In this document: positions 14,455-61,828 of the stretch, piece after piece
Numbering within the stretch: the first letter of the stretch is position 1
Layout of the letters: the number at the start of each line of letters is the position of its first letter
From: Sycon ciliatum
Lineage: Eukaryota > Porifera > Calcarea > Leucosolenida > Sycettidae
Length of the DNA: 64,000 nt
NCBI RefSeq assembly: GCF_964019385.1
Contig: NC_088643.1
Location: 48,102,693-48,166,692, forward strand
Direction of reading: 5' to 3'
The notes under the pieces: generated by a model
Told to the model about the DNA's origin: nothing
The model's database searches: none
What the model saw: only the letters and a program-made list of their open reading frames with translations
Translations under genes and position numbers: made by a program

Positions 14455-15776
14455 CGACGTTATATTTATGCACGATCTCGAACGGTCACTGCTGCGGTCT
14501 GCGCCCGGTGCTCCTGTATTGTTCAAAAGATACATCGATGACATCATCATGCTATGGGTATTAGGAGCGACGCTGCTGTTGTTTTATTCAACACTTCAAC
14601 GATGGTAGCCCAATGATCAAATTTGCCCACCAGTCCACCGAAGAAACATGCTCGATTGACTTCAGAGACACCACAATCCATGTGTCAACGACTGGAGCCA
14701 TTTCATACGAGCTCTTCCACAAACCATGTCATGGCGGCTTGGTGTCTGACTACAAATCCGCCGTTCCATACCAACAAAAGATCTCAATTGCCTCGTCCGA
14801 ATTCCTCCGAGCTGCTTGACTCTCATTGGATAATGCAACGTGCCTGATGAGTGAAAAGAAAGTCATCGACGTGCTGAAATTCAATAATTTCCCCCAATCA
14901 GTGATTGACAAAGCCTGGGGTCGAGCTGGACAACCGACAGGATCGAAAAAGGACTTTCGCACAACACTCAAGCTTCCATTCAAAACAGACCACATCCACA
15001 AGAAGGTACAATTATTATCTATGAACAAGAGGGTTAAGATGCACCATTATGTTTCCCCTTTTTTGCTACAAAAGGGTGAAGTTCACTATCTGTTAGCCAT
15101 TCTACATTATCAACCTTCACTGACGAGATCCTGATGATCGAAACAGCTGCTGTCTGAAGGAGCAGAGTACCAACTGAAGTGTCGTTTTGCTGATGGTGTG
15201 CTGTGGCAACGTGTTGAGGTCCGCTGGAGAGCGCAGCGGTGTGGTGTGGTGGTTGATAAGAATTATTATCTAATTAGCAAAAATCAGCTGAATACCCACT
15301 TGGGCCACATCATCTACAAGAATGCTCGGCTCGGCTCACGGGTTTGCAGGTCTGCCTTGGAGAAGCGCCTGTGCCGCAAGTTTGTTGATCCAGAGCAGCC
15401 AAGGAGAAGGGGTAGAGCGAAAGCAGCTTGCATGGCCTGTACAGCAGGTACAACAGGCTGCGCCCACCGGGACGTAATGTACCACCTGGAGTGCCGATGT
15501 GGTAATGACTATGTCGGAGAAACTGGATGAACCGTGGCGACAAGGTCAAAGGAAAACAATGATAGCGCATGCAACGAGGTCCGAGGAAAGGTGCTGGATG
15601 AGCATTACCGGATCTTTCACGCTGATGAGCCATTGTCATTGGGGGAGACCGGATTTGCCAATGTCTGTGTGCTTGGGACAAAGCCAGGCAGGGCAAGGAG
15701 AAGGATTTGGGAGGCCATCAAGATCTGGGACATGAAGCCTAACATGAACACCAGCACTGGCTGGGATCTCCTGTGA
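14455..15776 (+). pseudogene. Penelope-like retroelement, RT and GIY-YIG endonuclease, decayed
   Basis: The catalytic palm box of a reverse transcriptase is visible as FKRYIDDIIMLW (YIDD at 14531-14542), followed after a frame change near 14590 by HFNDGSPMIKFAHQ and the thumb-side segment ending in SSEFLRAA. A second frame change leads to 14826-15130, where KKDFRTTLKLPF marks the region after the RT. From about 15150 one frame continues through LGHIIYKNARLGSR, LCRKFVDPEQPRRRGR and a Cys-rich linker into the endonuclease motif YHLECRCGNDYVGETG (15480-15527). It ends with EAIKIWDMKPNMNTSTGW and a stop at 15774-15776. RT followed by GIY-YIG is diagnostic of Penelope-like elements, which copy RNA into a nicked chromosomal site. 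At 15528-15530 a TGA replaces the Arg codon usual after GETG, most simply a CpG transition. The N-terminal part is missing. Confidence 0.85.
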
Positions 15777-33193: not shown

Positions 33194-34999
33194 TCATTCA
33201 AATGATACAGGAAACACGCCTGTTTCTGCCATTTCCGCGAGGTGGATTAGTTCCTCTGCACCTGGCACAAGATCTCGGATTGGAGCCCACATGGAGGAAG
33301 TATGTCTGGACTCGTAGTAGACAGGAGACCTGAACTGGAGCGGTCTATTCGAGTCGCAAGAGTACTCTTCCGCTGATACGGCCGTTGAGGGAGACAGCGG
33401 TGGCGTTTCTGTGTTTTCGGCTACGTAGGGAGGATGTGCGCAGTGCAAGTCTTCACTCAATGGTTTCTGGAGGTCGTCATTAGGTGTTAGAGCTGCAGTG
33501 CAATTCTGCTGGTGCTTGTCGACTGTTTCGTTGCCATCCTGTCCGTTGTCTGCGATATGCTGGGCTAGCTTTTCACGCAACAGTGCAGTATCATCTGACG
33601 TCAATGATGTTGTTTCAGAGTCGGACGGCAATGACTCTGGTGTGTTGAAGTCCCTCGCAATATCCAGGTCATCGCCTGGCAAGGCTTGTGGTTGCTGCAC
33701 TGTGTAACTGGATACACTGCTGGATGTCTTGCCCGGTGGCTTGCTGGATGCACTGCGAGCAGATTGAGAGCAGACAGTCGCGGCTGCTGCATTGCGTTGG
33801 GGTAAGCTTGGCTGAAGAATACAGCGGCGTTTCAAATCGGGTATCAACGGCTCCTGGTGAACGTTTGGTCTTGCTCGTCCGGCTGGTTTCTTGCTACCTG
33901 ATCTCCTTGCTGTGTCTCTTGATCTAGAGTGTGCCACAGGCTTCTTAGAGACAAGCTCAACCATTGGCTCAAGCTTGACTGGCTTCTTCTTAGGCCGGTA
34001 CTTGTAATCAGGGTACTTCGCCTGATGTTCAATCTTCTCTCTTTTAGCCATATCGTAAAAGGGCTTCTTCTCGTCTTCCGTCTTTGACTTCCACACCCGT
34101 CCCAAGTCCTTGCTTATCTCGGCGTTGTGCAGTTTGGGGTTTTTGGCCATCCTCTCTTTCCGCTCCAAGGATGACCAAACCATAAACGCATTCTTTGGTC
34201 GCTTGACGTGCTCGGCTGCTGCACCTTTGATCTTTCGCCTGCGTTCCCCTGGAGCATGCAACTGCTGTAGCTGGTGTTGCTGCTGCTGCTTCGCTTGTTG
34301 GACACTGATACATGTAGACGATTTCATTATTCTGGACATTGGTGTGAAGTTGGTGGTGCTCTGCGTGCTGGCGGCTGGTGCTGCCAGTCTTGAGTTTCGG
34401 GTCTTCTTCTTTACAACTGTTCCTGGCCTGGGGTAGGAATCATCGGATTCGGTACCGCTGCTGGTGCTGCTTTCGCTGCTAAGATCGCCAGTGGTGACGC
34501 TGCTGTCGCTGCTTTGGCCACTGCTTTTGACGCTGCTATTGCCGTCGCTGCTTTGGCCACTGCTTTTGATGCTGCTATTGCTGTCGCTGCTTTGACCACT
34601 GCTTTTGACGCTGCTATTGCTGTTGCTCACAATAACGTTACTGCTGTTGTCCTGGCTACTTCTCCTGCTGCGGGCCCGGAGTCTGAGATGATAGTCGCTA
34701 AGCGGAAGTTGACTAGCAGCAGTGTCGGATTCAAGTTGACTAGGCCTAGGGATGTCGGATTCTGAATCTGAGGATTCCGTGTCGCTGCTATCACTGCTAC
34801 TGCTTCCAGACGAACTAGATGAACTAGATGAGCTACTGCCAGAAGAACGGCTGCCATATGAACTTCTGCCGGATGAGCTGCTGCCATACGGACTGCTGCT
34901 AGTGGAGGATTCCGTATCTGTCCTCTTCCTCTTACGTGCATAAGATTCCAGAATGCACAGGCAAGAAAAACTTAGGGAATCCGAGCCGTCACTCATCAT
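33194..34999 (-). CDS. Sox-family HMG-box transcription factor
   Basis: An intronless 601-residue frame. The start is the first of two ATGs; an in-frame TGA lies 15 bases upstream, so the N-terminus is complete unless spliced. Residues 20-26 carry a basic ARKRKR signal. Residues 31-180 are Ser-rich and acidic, with three 13-residue repeats ([13 protein letters not shown] type) at 128-166. A Gln run lies at 238-246. The HMG box spans about 264-338 with the Sox signature RPKNAFMVW, then [14 protein letters not shown] and [11 protein letters not shown]. The box bends DNA by minor-groove binding at ACAAAG-like sites in the nucleus, and the intercalating Phe-Met pair is retained. The usual RPMNAFMVW Met is Lys here. 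HNAEIS and [10 protein letters not shown] recall SoxC, but the branch is too long to assign by eye. The C-terminal 260 residues are Ser/Pro-rich and end in an acidic-hydrophobic segment ([20 protein letters not shown]), a possible activation domain. Confidence 0.93.
34502..34618 (-). repeat. In-frame 39-bp minisatellite in the Sox gene
   Basis: Three tandem 39-bp units encode [13 protein letters not shown]-like peptides (residues 128-166). Because the unit is 13 codons, copy-number change would keep the frame. Confidence 0.85.
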
Positions 35000-47500: not shown

Positions 47501-49470
47501 TCGAGTGTTCCGTACGGTACGTCACTACATGAAGACCAACATGCGGGCCGTCCTGTCGACAGTTCAATTTCATGGTCAGTAGAGTACACGTAACATATCC
47601 ATAGGTGACTGTAGAAGTCAAAACTTAGTAAAGTTAGTGTACATTATACACACGTGCTGTAAACGAGGGCATTGGCATTTTGTGTCCAGGTGATTCCAGA
47701 GGGAAGTCCTGCCAATTGCTGCGTCAGCGGGGGAGTTCCGTCCATTCAAACCACCCCGAGTAACTATTAGACAAGCCCCATTTACACCCAGTAATAAATT
47801 GCCAATGCGCGCATATCAACCCCCCAATGAAACCCTCTTGAAGTCAAGACACCTGAATAGGAATGATCAGGAAAGAGAGCACTGAGGCTGAGCTGAGGCA
47901 GAGCATGCTAGCAGGCACAGCTCCAGCTGTAGTCCCACACAGACTTGCACTGTGTCAGGTCACACTTCACTCACTCTCCACACAGTCTGGAGCAGCACTG
48001 ACTGACACAACCCCGTACCCACACTTCTCCAGTCACAGTTGACAGTCACAGATAACTGGTTAACCGGTTGTACGTCAACGTCTCAACGAGGGAGATGTGT
48101 TGCCCAGTGGTAGATGAAGAGATCTCTGGAAGCATCTGCTCTGTGACGCTCACTACACAGACTGCAGACTGTGCTACATCATGCTCATAGAGCAGCTCCT
48201 ACCCCTATGCTATTATCATGATTATAATGCTAACATGTTGTTGTTTATAGTAATACTTCAAAGAAGTAGGCTGAATCACTGAACAAGTAACATAAACTCT
48301 GCATGCTGTAGTCTGCACTCTGCAGTGTTGCAAGGACACTGAGAACAGCATTGCGTGCATCGACGCTTGTGCTGCCCGCTACAAGTACAACACACTACTG
48401 ATACATGTAGCAGTACAATCATAGTCATTGTACGTCGCTTGATCACTATTGCATGTCACTGCATGTCACCATCGTATTGCTACTCTGCAGTCAACTATTA
48501 CACTAACTCGCTGCTTCCTTCATTCTCCAGACAAGTACAGACAAGTACTGGTATGCATCATCATCATCCAGCACGCAGCAGTACTAACATGATAACAGCA
48601 CACTGTACAGCAACCAGCGCTTAGTCAATGCTTGTCAAACATGAAGATGACACTCCGTGTCAAGGAACGACCCGAACACAATTCACAACCAGACAGCCAA
48701 CGCGTTTCGTCTGACGCCGCAGTTCACCGTCCCATTGGGACGCCTACGCGCACAGGCGAATGGCATCCTTGGTGTCAATCAAATCACGGCCTTCGCCAAG
48801 GCTTTCAAGCCGACAAATGACGCCGAAAACAACACGGCAAGTTTCCACGTCGCCTGGTAAGGTCGAAGTAAGTTAGAGTTCCATACCGCTTCCAAGACGG
48901 TACTAGACAATGCTTCTGTGATAATATCAATTATGACTGTTATAAGGGCTCCAGGAGCATGTAAGACGACATGATAGACATACAATGATACATGCAACCC
49001 TACAGGACAATGTGAGAATGTGTCAACAACCTGAATCCCTTGTAAAGTAAACACAGAACGTACTACACAGGAGACACGGGATGGGACGGGGGCTTGCTGG
49101 CGACATGATGCCCCCACTGAATTGAACGCTGCAACTCTGAAGAAAGTGTCAGGGCGCAGTCAGTGTTACATAGACATAGTGTTACGCACTGAATACAGTG
49201 TCATGTAAGAAAAGCAGCCATGACATTTTACTACTGTTCGCCAGGATCCACTGGCTCCCTGATTGGGAGGATACTTCAAAAAGCAAGAGTCTTCTCCTCC
49301 AAGCTCCTCCCAGCCACTGCTAATTGCCAGCAGAACTTGTTCACACGACACACCACGATGTATCAACAACTGCTAATGCCTCCCACAAGAAATTACCAAT
49401 GCTTTGTATTCACGATTCAAAGTACAATACCATACGGTCACAGGCATGGAGTGAGTGGAAAATGGAAGGG
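41523..49470. other. Gene-poor, ACATGT-rich sequence
   Basis: No supported gene. Long alternating runs of TACATGTACATG occur at about 42610-42640, 42770-42790, 42945-42997 and 43840-43858. Frames up to 160 codons (46664-47146) lack domains and splice support. Confidence 0.5.
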
Positions 49471-50190
<720 letters not shown>

Positions 50191-50229
50191 GAGCGAGAGA
50201 ACTAGTAGAACCTACACACTCACATGCAT

Positions 50230-51970
50230 ACCCCTTCTGTCCCTCCTCCCCCCCCCCCCCACACACACACGCACCAACCCGCCATTGCCCATGACCTCCG
50301 TGACTGGAAGAGCCCATGTTTGCGCGTGGGCGCGTGGGGGGGGGGGGGGTGATGGGACCACTAAATAAAATAAAATATTGATGTATCATAATGCAAGTAT
50401 GAGCCCTATATTGCATGCATTATCTGTGACTCTCGCATTATCAGAACATTTCTCTTATTCGAATCTCTTCTGAATGGCATATGCACCTAAGGGTTCAAAT
50501 AATCAATTGTCTCTATAACATAGCTCTTCTGCTCCCATGACAATCATTACGTGCATTAAAGGTCTACATGCGACACTGCTGTAACGGAATCTCAGCCATT
50601 CCGTTCCCCGGGACGCAGGACACAAAGGACAAGACTAGTTTGGTTTACATAATAATTATTGACAATACGGAAATGGAGACAACCCTCAAAGGGACGAACA
50701 AGAACACTGACAAAAGGACTCTCGACTACAAAATCGCGCATGCTCATATCACACATGCACGCGACTAGACGAGACAGTTTGGGGAATGCCATCACACAGG
50801 AAAACAACACATCATTTTACAACACTGCATGCTGAAGAACAATTGTCCAAAACATGTTTGGCTATGCCTGTCTTAGAATGTTAAAGCACGCATTCAATCT
50901 CTGTTTTCCAGTGCATCCGCCAAACTGCAAATAGTGAACTGCACACACTCACGGTTACACGCATGCAGGCACGCACACAATCTATACATACCAATATTAT
51001 CTAATTGAAGTGCAAATATACTACAGACTTCACTGTACTACAGACTTCACGGTTTCGAAATGGCGCCACTGTACTGCGCAGGGGCGTCACACACGGTACG
51101 GCTTTTCGACCAGGATCATCCGCCCCGAACGCTTAAACTTGTCCTGTTGGCCGAAAAACCCGATCTTTTTCCACGAGGGACACCCCGGACCCCCTCCCGT
51201 CATACCACTCCACACTGCCCTGTGATGCCCCTGCTTCGGACCGTAGTGTTAGCATCAACTGCTAAGCAGAATAGTAGCCTATTTATAAAGAATGTAACAT
51301 CTACCAATCATCACTCATTCTATTGTTCACCAAACATTATCATACCCAGAGGGGGGGGACCACTTTGTGTCTGCGCACACAAGTGGAATCACATCCAAAA
51401 ATTCAGTTATAAATTTGTTATACCACTAATCCACCAGATGTGCTCCACCCACGACAGCCAACTTATCGGTAAAGACATGTCTACTGCTAAGGAAGTTAGT
51501 TGCTCCCCATCCTGGAGCTCACGCTTTTATTATTGGATAGAGTAGGACATTTTAAAAATGAGCCAGAAAACAAACAAAGCTTGTCAAAATCCGACCTGCC
51601 GTTCGGGAGACACGGTTGCTTGAAGTAACCTTGTTGGCACTCTTGCTGGAAACAGTTTTGATGCAGGTCAGTGGCACAAAACTGGGAAATTCAACCACCA
51701 ATCCAAAAGATCTGACATTTATTTTTCCTCATGAGTCCGCCAAAATGTTATTGAAAATTAGTCAATTACCCATAGGTTGCTCCCACTAGCCGCCGGCAAT
51801 TGTTTTCCTGATCCATCCAACAAGGATGCGGCTGTAATGGGCGTTTTGGCACCGGTGCGGTTGTGGATCTTATCCCTCATCCCCAAGGTTAGGTGCTGTG
51901 TCTGCCACTGATTTTACCGGGTGTTAGCGGGTGTTAGCGGCCGTTACCGGGTGTTAGCGGCCGTTATAAG
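50230..51970. other. Unassigned sequence with homopolymer runs
   Basis: Contains a C run at 50250-50260, a G run at 50335-50349, and a small tandem GGGTGTTAGCGG/CCGTTACC block at 51918-51967. A CTGAAGAACAATTGTCCAAAA word at 50832 resembles a mutated hammerhead core. Confidence 0.45.
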
Positions 51971-58699: not shown

Positions 58700-60540
58700 G
58701 CCAAGACAAAGGTAGGTGAAAGAGAAGACCCCTCGAACAAGAACGAGTCTCCAGAAGCCCTATGACAGAATGAAGGATTAGCTTGCCAGTGGAATACATC
58801 AGTGGGCATACATTTCACATACTTTTTGGAGAATTGTTTCAATCGAAGAGGACGCTGTTTGCTATATTCTCCCAACGTCGTGAGCGATTCCGTCTTCTAT
58901 ACCCTTCCAGGTACCCTGAAGGTCCTCCCGAGGAGAATTTATCTCCAGCAAAGCGTAGTTGATCCGCTAAATTTGTCTCGAGACGTATTCACCCAGTGCT
59001 GATGATGTAGAATGTTGAATCTGTGATACTTGTTGACGATGGAGAGAGAGGTTGATAGCCGCTGTCGCAGGGAGAGGGAAGCCGCTAGGAATAACAACGG
59101 GGAGCTTGTTAGCATTACATGAGCACGCAGACTTCGAAGCAGCTTGACGGAATCGGGGAGTACTGACTATTTGTCTCACTCTTTTAGTGAATTTTATGAC
59201 CAGAAAGTATCTCAATCAAGATGCCTCCTACAATATGTGTAGTACAGGTGATTTCTGAAATTGACGATATGGAGACCGACCAGTGGACCTACCAACAACG
59301 TGTACCTGCAGAAAATTCACCCAAGCTTGCTGCTATCCTCTTCCGTGGCTGTTTTTCAGTAACGATTTGCTCGCTTCTGCATAGCAGCAAGAAGGTGCGC
59401 TATGGAATTCAACGCCACATTCTTCGCCCAGCTGTGGATGAAGCATGGTCAAATCATGGCAGTACATATACTTGGAACAGATTAGAAATCGAAGTTCATT
59501 GTTGATGGGAAGTGTGACAGCCCCAGTGACCGAGTCAAGTATTGTTATGTACTTTTGTCGTGGCGCAAATTGCAGAAGAAACTGAGATTGTCTTGGAATT
59601 ATGCACATGGATAGTACCAGAAATAATGGTAGTATGGACCATTGTGGACTGGGACAGCTCACGGAGAATACTGCAGCAGCTCAAATATCTCTAGGCAGTT
59701 GTAAATAGCCCTGTTCTGGCTGTTAGCTCCGGCCTACAGCGCCCACAGCTTCTGCTTCCACAGAGACTTCAAATTTATATTTCCCCCGCTACTTCTGGTA
59801 GTTTGAGCACTCTCAGTGCTAGTCATGGCCAGCAATCGAGGACATCTGAGAGTTGTAATTTTTGTACTCCTCCGAGGTGTGATTTTTGGCGTGCTGGGCC
59901 TTGCACAAGGAAGCCATCTGCAAAAAAACTACAGAAAATGGTTGTTGTTTGATCCTTTGGTGTAATCTTTGTTTCCAGTCGAAGCTAGTTGCTGTTTGGA
60001 GCAGAAACGCTGAAATTGACTATTTTCTGCATGTACTCATACATGTACTCATGTACTCAGGCATGCAGTCTCACTCGTATTTTAGCTCTTTTTCTGGAAT
60101 GGATGCTGCTCTGCGCCCCTTGGTGAACATTTCCTGCGCTCGTGGAGCAGCTGAAAAGGACCACTGGTATGTCTGGTTCCTGGTTTGAAAGTGGAGAGTC
60201 GACTTTTGTGCCTTGAAAAAGGAGTAGAGAGCGATAAAGGTACGTCTGTGGCTTATTTTTGAGTGCTCCTCGTACATTTTTGATCGTGATAGAAATTCTC
60301 AGACCAAAGTCAGACCAAAGTCAGCGCGATGATGGCCGTACAGTTTTCTTGTGGATTTTTTAGTTGTTTCATCTCGTATCTATGTCAGTATCGTGATGGT
60401 GAAGTGGAGAGGGTGATTTTCTTCCTCTAGGCTTCGTTCGGCCGACTTTGCTTCGTCCTCGTTGAAAAGTGATCCTGAAAAAAAGGTCGATTCGCAAAAT
60501 TATGTTGATTTTGAATGTACGTGATGACATGCGATTGCTG
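58700..60540. other. Unassigned sequence
   Basis: No confident gene. A frame at 59221-59505 (MPPTICVVQVISEIDDMETD...) is the most protein-like. The block CTACTTCTGGTAGTTTGAGC at about 59789 recurs at about 60755, next to the hammerhead dimer. Confidence 0.4.
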
Positions 60541-60611
60541 GCTATGACATCGAGTTGTTCTAATGTCTGTGGTTCTCGTAGCCATGGCTGACAGTTCAAT
60601 CCTATTTTAAG

Positions 60612-60672
60612 CTCGGAGTTGCACTGATGAGGCCTCATTGGCCGAAACAGTCTGGCTGTCTGCATCATTGAG
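60612..60672 (+). ncRNA. Type I hammerhead ribozyme, copy 1
   Basis: The core CTGATGA (60624-60630) is followed by stem II GGCC-TCATT-GGCC (60631-60643) and GAAA (60644-60647). Stem III is ACAG-TCTGG-CTGT (60647-60659), with C60660 as the cleavage-site base. Stem I pairs TGCA 60620-60623 with TGCA 60661-60664. After an internal loop of 5 bases on each side it continues with CTC 60612-60614 against GAG 60670-60672. All invariant core bases and the G-C closing pair of stem II are present, so self-cleavage after 60660 is predicted. Confidence 0.85.
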
Positions 60673-60855
60673 TATTTCGCTCCTCGATTTCGATCTTGTA
60701 GAGCACTCTCAATAGGACGCACTTGCGCTGGTTAGCCGCTTTTATGCTTTTCCCGCTACTTCTGGTAGTTTGAGCACTCTCAGCGCTAGTACATCGAGCT
60801 GTCCTAATGTCTGTGGTTCTCGTAGCCATGGCTGACAGTTTGATCCTATTTTAAG

Positions 60856-60916
60856 CTCGGAGTTGCACTGATGAGGCCTCATTGGCCGAAACAGTCTGGC
60901 TGTCTGCATCATTGAG
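60856..60916 (+). ncRNA. Type I hammerhead ribozyme, copy 2
   Basis: Same sequence and fold as copy 1, shifted by 244 bp: CTGATGA 60868-60874, stem II 60875-60887, GAAA 60888-60891, stem III to 60903, predicted cleavage after C60904. Two cleavages would release a 244-nt unit. Confidence 0.85.
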
Positions 60917-61089
60917 TATTTCCAATATAAATAAGTATAGGGGAAGAGTGTGTTGCTCCCTACATGGGAGCTCGCGGTTTTCCTGCCGACTTGAATTCTC
61001 ACTTGACTGACTCACGACTGCCATCCAGAGCACACGCGAAGTCCATCGAACCGTCCACTCGGCAAACCTGCAAGAAAGCACCACTCCCT

Positions 61090-61136
61090 GCTCAATACAC
61101 AGTGTTTCGGGGAATTCACCCCTCATCTTGAGCTTG
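61090..61136 (-). ncRNA. Hammerhead copy broken by a two-base core deletion
   Basis: Minus-strand mirror of the 61355-61400 ribozyme. Stem II (GGGG-CCCC), GAAA and the stem I strands are kept, but the core reads GATGA directly after CTCAA, lacking the CT of CTGATGA. The two missing bases include an invariant core C, so activity should be lost. Confidence 0.7.
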
Positions 61137-61354
61137 AGTAGGCTGAGGAAGATTGTGCCTGAAGAGCACCACTTATAATTATAGTGCTCTCCAGGCACAA
61201 ACATCACCAGGGATACAAACTTACAGAGACACCTGTGTTTGTCGCGCTGGAAACGGAGCATCTCTGTAAGTTTGTCCCTGGTGATGTTTGTGCCTGGAGA
61301 GCACTATAATTATAAGTGGTGCTCTTCAGGCACAATCTTCTTCAGCCTACTCAA

Positions 61355-61400
61355 GCTCAACTGATGAGGGGTGAGTTCCCCGAAACACTGTGTATTGAGC
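61355..61400 (+). ncRNA. Type I hammerhead ribozyme, second family
   Basis: CTGATGA (61361-61367), stem II GGGG-TGAGTT-CCCC (61368-61381), GAAA (61382-61385), stem III ACA-CTG-TGT closing at 61393, cleavage base A61394. Stem I is a perfect 6-bp helix, GCTCAA 61355-61360 with TTGAGC 61395-61400. All core positions fit the consensus. The short 3-bp stem III matches what is reported for Penelope-associated hammerheads. Confidence 0.85.
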
Positions 61401-61828
61401 AGGGAGTGGTGCTTTCTTGCAGGTTTGCCGAGTGGACGGTTCGATGGACTTCTCGTGTGCTCTGTATGGCAGTCGTGAGTCAGTCAAGTGAGAATTCAAG
61501 TCGGCAGGAAAACCGCGAGCTCCCATGTAGGGAGCAACACACTCTTCCCCTACTACCGCCGCCGAAGTCGCACCAACCTCTTCTTCACATAAATAATTAT
61601 AAACCAAAATTTATTCGCATCGATCTCCAGACCACCCATCATTGATTTTCTCATTTGATGCAATGAGGTTATGCCACATTCGTCAGTTACGGATGTTATA
61701 GGTGAGCCTTGCAAACCAGTGGTGTGTCACACACACACACACACCCCTTGACTAGCAATAGTCGATTTGCACCACAGGCAAGTGCATAGCGCAAAACACA
61801 CCAGGGCAGGTCAAACTGCAGAAGACAT

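Follow-up and report, generated by a model that had tools for sequence, protein, structure and literature searches.

A Tandem Hammerhead Repeat of the Sponge Sycon ciliatum as a Probable Non-LTR Retrozyme Whose 3' End Is Fixed at the Base of Its Ribozyme

Introduction

Two hammerhead ribozymes (HHRs) stand head to tail at positions 60612-60916 of a 64,000-nt stretch of the genome of the calcareous sponge Sycon ciliatum (contig NC_088643.1, positions 48,102,693-48,166,692; below, the window), and they raise two questions: what kind of element carries them, and which machinery copied it there. The initial annotation of the locus had favored a non-autonomous ribozyme element over the end of a Penelope element. 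The reverse transcriptase (RT) that moves animal retrozymes has been left open between LINEs and Penelope elements, with the latter as a strong candidate (PMC7229834; published work is cited here for the sections of each paper that were drawn upon). A genome holding 13,601 hammerhead core patterns makes this RT question answerable by counting the ends, target-site duplications (TSDs), and orientations of elements of both kinds.

Results and Discussion

The Hammerhead Pair

On the plus strand of the window, two identical 61-nt type I hammerhead sequences (60612-60672 and 60856-60916) are spaced by exactly 244 nt, as part of a direct repeat (60541-60678 and 60785-60922) of 96% identity. A hammerhead evaluation of the sequence places the same core in both copies (CUGAUGA, stem II GGCC/GGCC, GAA, and U before C17), together with a 4-bp stem III (ACAG/CUGU, loop UCUGG) and a stem I in which UGCA/UGCA and CUC/GAG flank a symmetric 5x5 internal loop (GGAGU/UCAUU). 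Direct reading thus bears out what had been claimed of the pair, i.e., complete cores, a short stem III, a symmetric loop in stem I, and a 244-bp head-to-tail spacing. Cleavage is predicted after C60660 and C60904, and the interval between the two sites (60661-60904; GC 0.488) is the predicted 244-nt self-cleaved RNA, with predicted 5'-hydroxyl and cyclic-phosphate ends, or its predicted circle.

Neither copy in the window is matched at the Rfam gathering score (Hammerhead_3 gives 15.8 and 16.2 bits for small cut-outs and, when 6 kb is searched, 19 and 22 bits; cut-off 48.5), and the minimum-energy fold of the sequence is not a hammerhead (-17.5 vs. -12.9 kcal/mol for the hammerhead)—results that would also fit hammerhead-like strings that arose by chance and are inactive. 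The initial annotation had staked its reading on covariance scores above threshold, and with Rfam the scores fall below it. The folding energy is no better than that of shuffled sequences (z -0.81) and lends the hammerhead no support. Chance, however, sits poorly with the frequency of the motif: a rule-based scan of the window finds four plus-strand HHRs and one doubtful minus-strand match, the same scan finds none in 60 dinucleotide shuffles of the window, and genome-wide the core pattern occurs 13,601 times vs. 60 times for the reversed pattern. We count the Rfam outcome as a false negative because a window-independent covariance model (R2)—built from nine HHR families elsewhere in the genome, all from the same pairing-demanding scan, with no HHR of the window included—scores each of the two at 46.9 bits (E 5e-14, R2's E-values being rough). 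A chance origin is extremely improbable on this evidence, and we regard the HHR pair at 60612-60916 as confirmed at the level of sequence. Over 13 aligned HHRs, 95.5% of cells are paired and 12 of 14 pairs show double changes; this count was set aside as proof, since the scan itself demands pairing and the alignment includes the window's own HHRs.

The Element in the Window and Its Neighbors

The ribozyme dimer proved to be only the 3' part of a longer element, so that the interval first assigned to it captured the two HHRs and fell short of the whole. The element, a copy of a family that we call E1, spans 59785-60916 on the plus strand and comprises a 5' part at 59785-59823 (a 5'-truncated unit; 59774-59823 aligns to the unit at 90%) and a main part at 60547-60916 that runs to the foot of stem I in the second HHR, for a total of 409 nt, or 1.68 units, once a nested insertion is excluded. 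That insertion (59824-60546, 723 bp) lies where E1 stops at 59823 and restarts at 60547, the uninterrupted unit junction at 60785-60798 serving for comparison. It has terminal inverted repeats of ~15 bp with one mismatch (ends CATGGCCAGCAATCG / reverse complement CATAGCCAGCAATCG), and no clear target duplication was seen at 59824-60546. The heptamer TATTTCC flanks the E1 copy at 59778-59784 and, identically, at 60917-60923; as a target duplication this pair is suggestive only, because 7 bp are few and overlap with the element's own TTTTCCC, and the exact 5' end of the copy depends on how the duplication is read.

E1 is non-coding (GC 0.488): stop-free stretches reach at most 39 codons in the sense direction and 77 in the antisense direction, and no LTR-like ends are seen. 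That no coding region adjoins the pair, as the initial annotation held, also stands: between 51,546 and 64,000 there is no listed frame of at least 150 aa, and with it no adjoining frame for RT and GIY-YIG endonuclease. Elsewhere in the window, an HMG-box frame of 601 aa (33194-34999, minus strand) gives the best Pfam match among four frames scanned (74.8 bits), and a long GA/CT simple repeat (49324-50416) opens spurious Arg-Glu and Ser-Leu frames.

Two further HHR families are present in the window: E3, at 15112-15162 on the plus strand (R2 44.1 bits), a copy of which also occurs in locus L015, and E2, which neighbors E1. The E2 insertion is a palindrome (60938-61589) in which two copies of a Penelope-type HHR family, both truncated at the 5' end, stand head to head, with arms at 60938-61213 and 61275-61552; its inverted repeats (190 and 86 nt) are 98-99% identical. 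It is flanked by a 10-bp target duplication with one mismatch, TAAATAA[G/T]TA (TAAATAAGTA at 60928-60937 and TAAATAATTA at 61590-61599). The right arm holds a minimal type I hammerhead (61353-61402, plus strand; R2 42.9 bits; Rfam RF00163 20.3 bits, cut-off 34) and the left arm a degenerate one that has lost the CU of CUGAUGA (61088-61135, minus strand; R2 31.7 bits). A 37-nt tail (61553-61589) is found on the right copy only; with at most four differences it recurs in all of the 16 small fetches, a set selected for protein matches extending to the tail, and six tail-less E2 ends occur in nine larger loci. The ATG inside CUGAUGA of the minimal HHR opens a frame that runs into this tail. No RT and endonuclease ORF is present in the window's E2, and among 150 matches listed of 9645 candidates the longest open frame has 280 aa. 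Tandem E2 units lie mostly 477-480 bp apart. By analogy, the anatomy of E2 is that described for Penelope pseudo-LTRs in the cited sections of two papers (PMC3846280, PMC11167929).

The E1 Family Across the Genome

The 41-nt E1 ribozyme pattern has 67 exact matches dispersed over the genome (538 Mb, 313 contigs), and the unit length across the family is 240-245 bp. Sixty E1 loci were fetched, half of them with a 361-nt query, which favors long copies; dropping 28 that repeated a 3' junction already counted (up to 3 differences allowed) left 32 distinct 3' junctions. In 30 of these 32 the 3' end lies no more than 4 nt from one point, after ...CATTGAG and before TA, at the foot of stem I; the exceptions are L005 (7 nt off) and L069 (42 nt off). 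This fixed end falls 12 nt past the predicted cleavage site (in the window, 60916 vs. 60904). The 5' ends vary, with no departure from a uniform spread over the unit found among 31 ends (p 0.094), and copy lengths run from 0.30 to 2.82 units and exceed one unit in 25 of 32.

Exact TSDs of at least 10 bp flank 12 of the 32 junctions (0.4% in a permuted-flank null), and exact TSDs of at least 6 bp, which run from 6 to 15 bp, flank 17 (null 8.4%), several of the TSDs being ambiguous in that they fall in simple repeats. At the other 15 of 32 junctions no exact TSD of at least 6 bp is present; age may be one cause, the copies differing by ~5%. E1 targets are TA-rich: of 19 hand-chosen sites 17 were scored, and at 11 of these 17 the duplication begins with TA. 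L018, L019, and L029 are probably one old insertion, though counted as three, and without L019 and L029 the fixed end holds in 28 of 30 junctions, TSDs of at least 10 bp in 11 of 30, and TSDs of at least 6 bp in 16 of 30. A single junction was counted for L003 together with L056, L062, and L079, whose flanks are GATA repeats; of the latter three, L056 and L062 are located elsewhere than L003 and are probably separate insertions.

Other families appear in the same loci. Judged by eye, the copies of E4 and E5, two HHR families that resemble E1, seem to end at ..TTGAG. In L004, L064, and L074, E1 stands tail to tail with an E4 or E5 copy across a short TA-rich stretch, an arrangement best explained by repeated insertion at one target.

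Divergence among the genomic copies is not significantly lower in the HHR than over the remainder of E1 (2.7 vs. 3.5%, p 0.054; 19 insertions from the 361-nt query). A pooled comparison that had suggested otherwise (1.5 vs. 3.4%, 32 insertions) was rejected as biased, many of its loci having been found by an HHR query.

Identity of E1

Target-primed reverse transcription, the mode of insertion of non-LTR elements, characteristically leaves copies with a constant 3' end, 5' truncations of differing extent, and duplicated target sites. As E1 shows all three, together with dispersed copies, a type I HHR, and copies longer than one unit, we consider it very probably an animal-type non-LTR retrozyme, for which target-primed reverse transcription is the proposed means of movement. 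The initial suggestion that the pair belongs to a non-autonomous ribozyme element, and not to the end of a Penelope element, is supported by the dispersal (67 HHRs), the non-coding 240-245-bp unit, and the target duplications.

Could E1 instead be ordinary satellite DNA, spread by unequal exchange and extrachromosomal DNA circles, with the HHR a relic? Two observations speak for this. An array with a period of ~1.76 kb at C10:29.30-29.44 Mb carries an old E1 insertion in its repeats (L018, L020, L021, L023, L026, L027, and L030), with L019 and L029 appearing to be kin of the array copy L018, and one locus pair, L010 and L073, shares both flanks and 5' end and differs by exactly one unit (1.54 vs. 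0.54 units). Because these two share flanks, some E1 length variation may arise by recombination after insertion. The array reads as satellite amplification of one retrozyme copy, however, and the family at large is made of dispersed copies, some shorter than a unit and with TSDs, whose fixed 3' and varying 5' ends are not products of unequal exchange. Satellite spread is thus a very unlikely account of E1, and we return to the retrozyme reading.

Template and Proposed Mechanism

We propose that read-through transcripts of tandem E1 copies would self-cleave at each HHR, and that the resulting 244-nt RNA would be ligated to a circle or, alternatively, an uncut multimer would persist. A non-LTR reverse transcriptase from another element—LINE-like rather than Penelope-like—would then nick TA-rich DNA, and the freed ...ATA 3' end of the target would pair with UAU just after HHR stem I, a pairing that needs a template continuing past the E1 end. 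From the foot of stem I, between ...CAUUGAG and UAU, copying would proceed upstream through the HHR, at times for more than two laps, to a stop point that varies. Since copying would start at the foot of stem I, each long-enough new copy would end 3' in a complete ribozyme. The steps of transcription, cleavage, and ligation are drawn by analogy from animal retrozymes as described in PMC7229834. The E1 data give an exact predicted start site for biochemistry.

The position of the fixed end constrains the template. A self-cleaved linear monomer would end at the cleavage site (60904) and is ruled out as template by a 3' end that lies 12 nt beyond it (60916). We infer that the template is either a ligated circle or an uncut multimer, both of which are compatible with E1 DNA copies that cross the cleavage site. 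The two are not separated by the divergence among units, because that within one insertion (4.9%) is about that between insertions (5.3%; 32 insertions).

The choice matters for the ribozyme, which would have no role in transposition if uncleaved read-through multimers were the template. Such a model agrees with the lack of any circle signal in within-insertion divergence, and in vitro HHR mutants left insertion by an Anolis Penelope element unaffected (per the cited part of PMC11167929). The points against it are weak: in each of three species tested, circular RNAs of animal retrozymes are abundant (PMC7229834, as cited), and none of the 32 E1 junctions examined has a locus above 2.82 units that could yield long multimers. 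We regard a purely uncut template as possible but doubtful; the retrozyme reading of E1 accommodates either template.

Orientation of Copies and the Helper Enzyme

Penelope elements form head-to-head inverted pairs. We counted orientations by family, joining HHR neighbors no more than 1 kb apart into clusters and using exact patterns, so that decayed copies are missed in all families alike. Head-to-head junctions occur in 16 of 59 E2 clusters (first 100 of 2791 places) and in 10 of 68 clusters of the 352-bp family E7 (first 100 of 752 places), with no tail-to-tail junction in either sample. Among E1 clusters (all 67 places) inverted pairs within 1 kb number 0 of 58, eight of which have at least two HHRs, and none of the 60 fetched E1 loci carries E1 HHRs on both strands. 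E4, counted after E1, E2, and E7 as a check of expected E1-like behavior, likewise has no inverted pair within 1 kb in 88 clusters (first 100 of 182 places). The minimal-HHR families thus differ from the canonical ones (E2 + E7, 26 of 127 clusters; E1 + E4, 0 of 146; p 5e-10), also when only clusters of at least two HHRs are compared (26 of 45 vs. 0 of 15; p 4e-5), both p values being optimistic because clusters are partly non-independent, some stemming from segmental duplication.

Two loci illustrate larger arrangements. At C1:1570545-1573115, three reverse and six forward E7 units, exactly 352 bp apart, stand head to head, and similar multimers occur elsewhere. At C1:35703396-35724696 (35.70-35.72 Mb), nine exact E1 ribozymes lie within 21 kb at spacings of 1.3 to 8.3 kb, five forward and then, 8.3 kb on, four reverse, a change of strand that the 1-kb rule omits.

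As no head-to-head E1 or E4 copies occur in the 146 clusters, unlike in the Penelope-type families, the counts point to a LINE-like helper for E1 rather than a Penelope-like one. RVT_1 matches that could supply the enzyme are many in the genome (150 scored of 21,675 candidates). The genome also holds two frames of ~600 aa (L050 and L051) whose GIY-YIG domain passes the Pfam cut-off; in one of the two, RVT_1 also matches weakly (27.4 bits against a cut-off of 29.6). We take these to be Penelope elements from the pairing of GIY-YIG with RVT_1 and from their motifs. In L051 with L082 (C1:2905800-2910903), CTGATGATGGCAATTTGCCGAAACG lies ~330 nt beyond the GIY-YIG frame and resembles the minimal hammerhead core of the Penelope kind.

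Such Penelope-like elements, whose RT starts internally and which carry HHRs of their own, might themselves mobilize E1. Besides the presence of GIY-YIG frames, one with a weak RVT_1 match, this idea can draw on published work: in the sections cited, the Anolis Penelope RT starts internally and favors AT-rich DNA (PMC11167929), as E1 favors TA-rich targets, and Penelope is named a strong candidate helper of animal retrozymes (PMC7229834). The orientation counts speak against it (E2 16 of 59 and E7 10 of 68 clusters head to head vs. 0 of 146 for E1 + E4, at the places counted), and, with the possible exception of L069, a second 3' end like that left by a tail is not seen in E1. Sequence similarity to a Penelope element was also sought and the idea dropped: when the window at 59-64 kb was compared with one Penelope locus, nothing significant emerged (best E 0.69). 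We hold a Penelope helper to be unlikely, and favor a LINE-like enzyme for E1.

The contrast between families can be taken one step further, to two classes of HHR element copied in one genome by two different machines; we put this forward tentatively, as plausible if somewhat short of probable. Were it true, the canonical E1 and E4 would use the ribozyme fold as an RT start mark, with one-strand insertion by a LINE-type enzyme, and for the minimal E2 and E7 a Penelope-type enzyme would extend both cut strands at once, each going several laps around an RNA, to give palindromic multimers.

Comparison With Known Systems

Elements of the E1 kind, i.e., metazoan non-LTR retrozymes, are already in print (Cervera and de la Pena, 2020; PMC7229834), with reported units of 170-400 nt, or 220-240 nt in corals. 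E1 resembles them in its canonical type I HHR, unit size (244 bp in tandem), dimers to multimers, non-coding sequence, GC below 50%, no LTR-like ends, TSDs longer than 4 bp, and the presence of Penelope elements in the same genome, and differs in a helper that looks LINE-like rather than Penelope-like. The cited sections of that paper describe neither a 3' end fixed at the foot of stem I nor a lack of inverted copies. LINE-type duplications on HHR repeats are not new either, because 15-bp LINE-like TSDs are mentioned for Nematostella HHR repeats (PMC4918200), which E1 resembles in its long TSDs; no account of fixed 3' ends for those repeats was found in the cited part of that paper. Plant LTR retrozymes share with E1 a non-coding unit bounded by tandem HHRs, but have a type III HHR, a length of ~700 bp, LTR, PBS, and PPT, and a 4-bp TSD, where E1 has a type I HHR and longer TSDs (PMC4918200). 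A fixed 3' end at the ribozyme and the contrast of two classes were not found in the portions of the open-licence PubMed Central literature covered, which is no proof of novelty. The 13,601 core patterns of this genome exceed the >6000 HHR motifs reported for Acropora millepora (PMC7229834, as cited), under search rules that differ.

E2, on the other hand, sides with the Penelope elements of the sections cited (PMC3846280, PMC11167929), sharing with them head-to-head copies, a short TSD (10 bp with one mismatch), an optional 30-40-nt tail on one arm, and a minimal HHR whose CUGAUGA holds the ATG of a frame into the tail, and differing in the lack of an RT and endonuclease ORF. E1 has none of these shared traits, nor an adjoining RT and GIY-YIG frame, when set against Penelope elements with pseudo-LTR, tail, and HHR. 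Extension from both DNA strands, as would be required of the enzyme proposed here for E2 and E7, has been reported for Penelope (PMC11167929, as cited).
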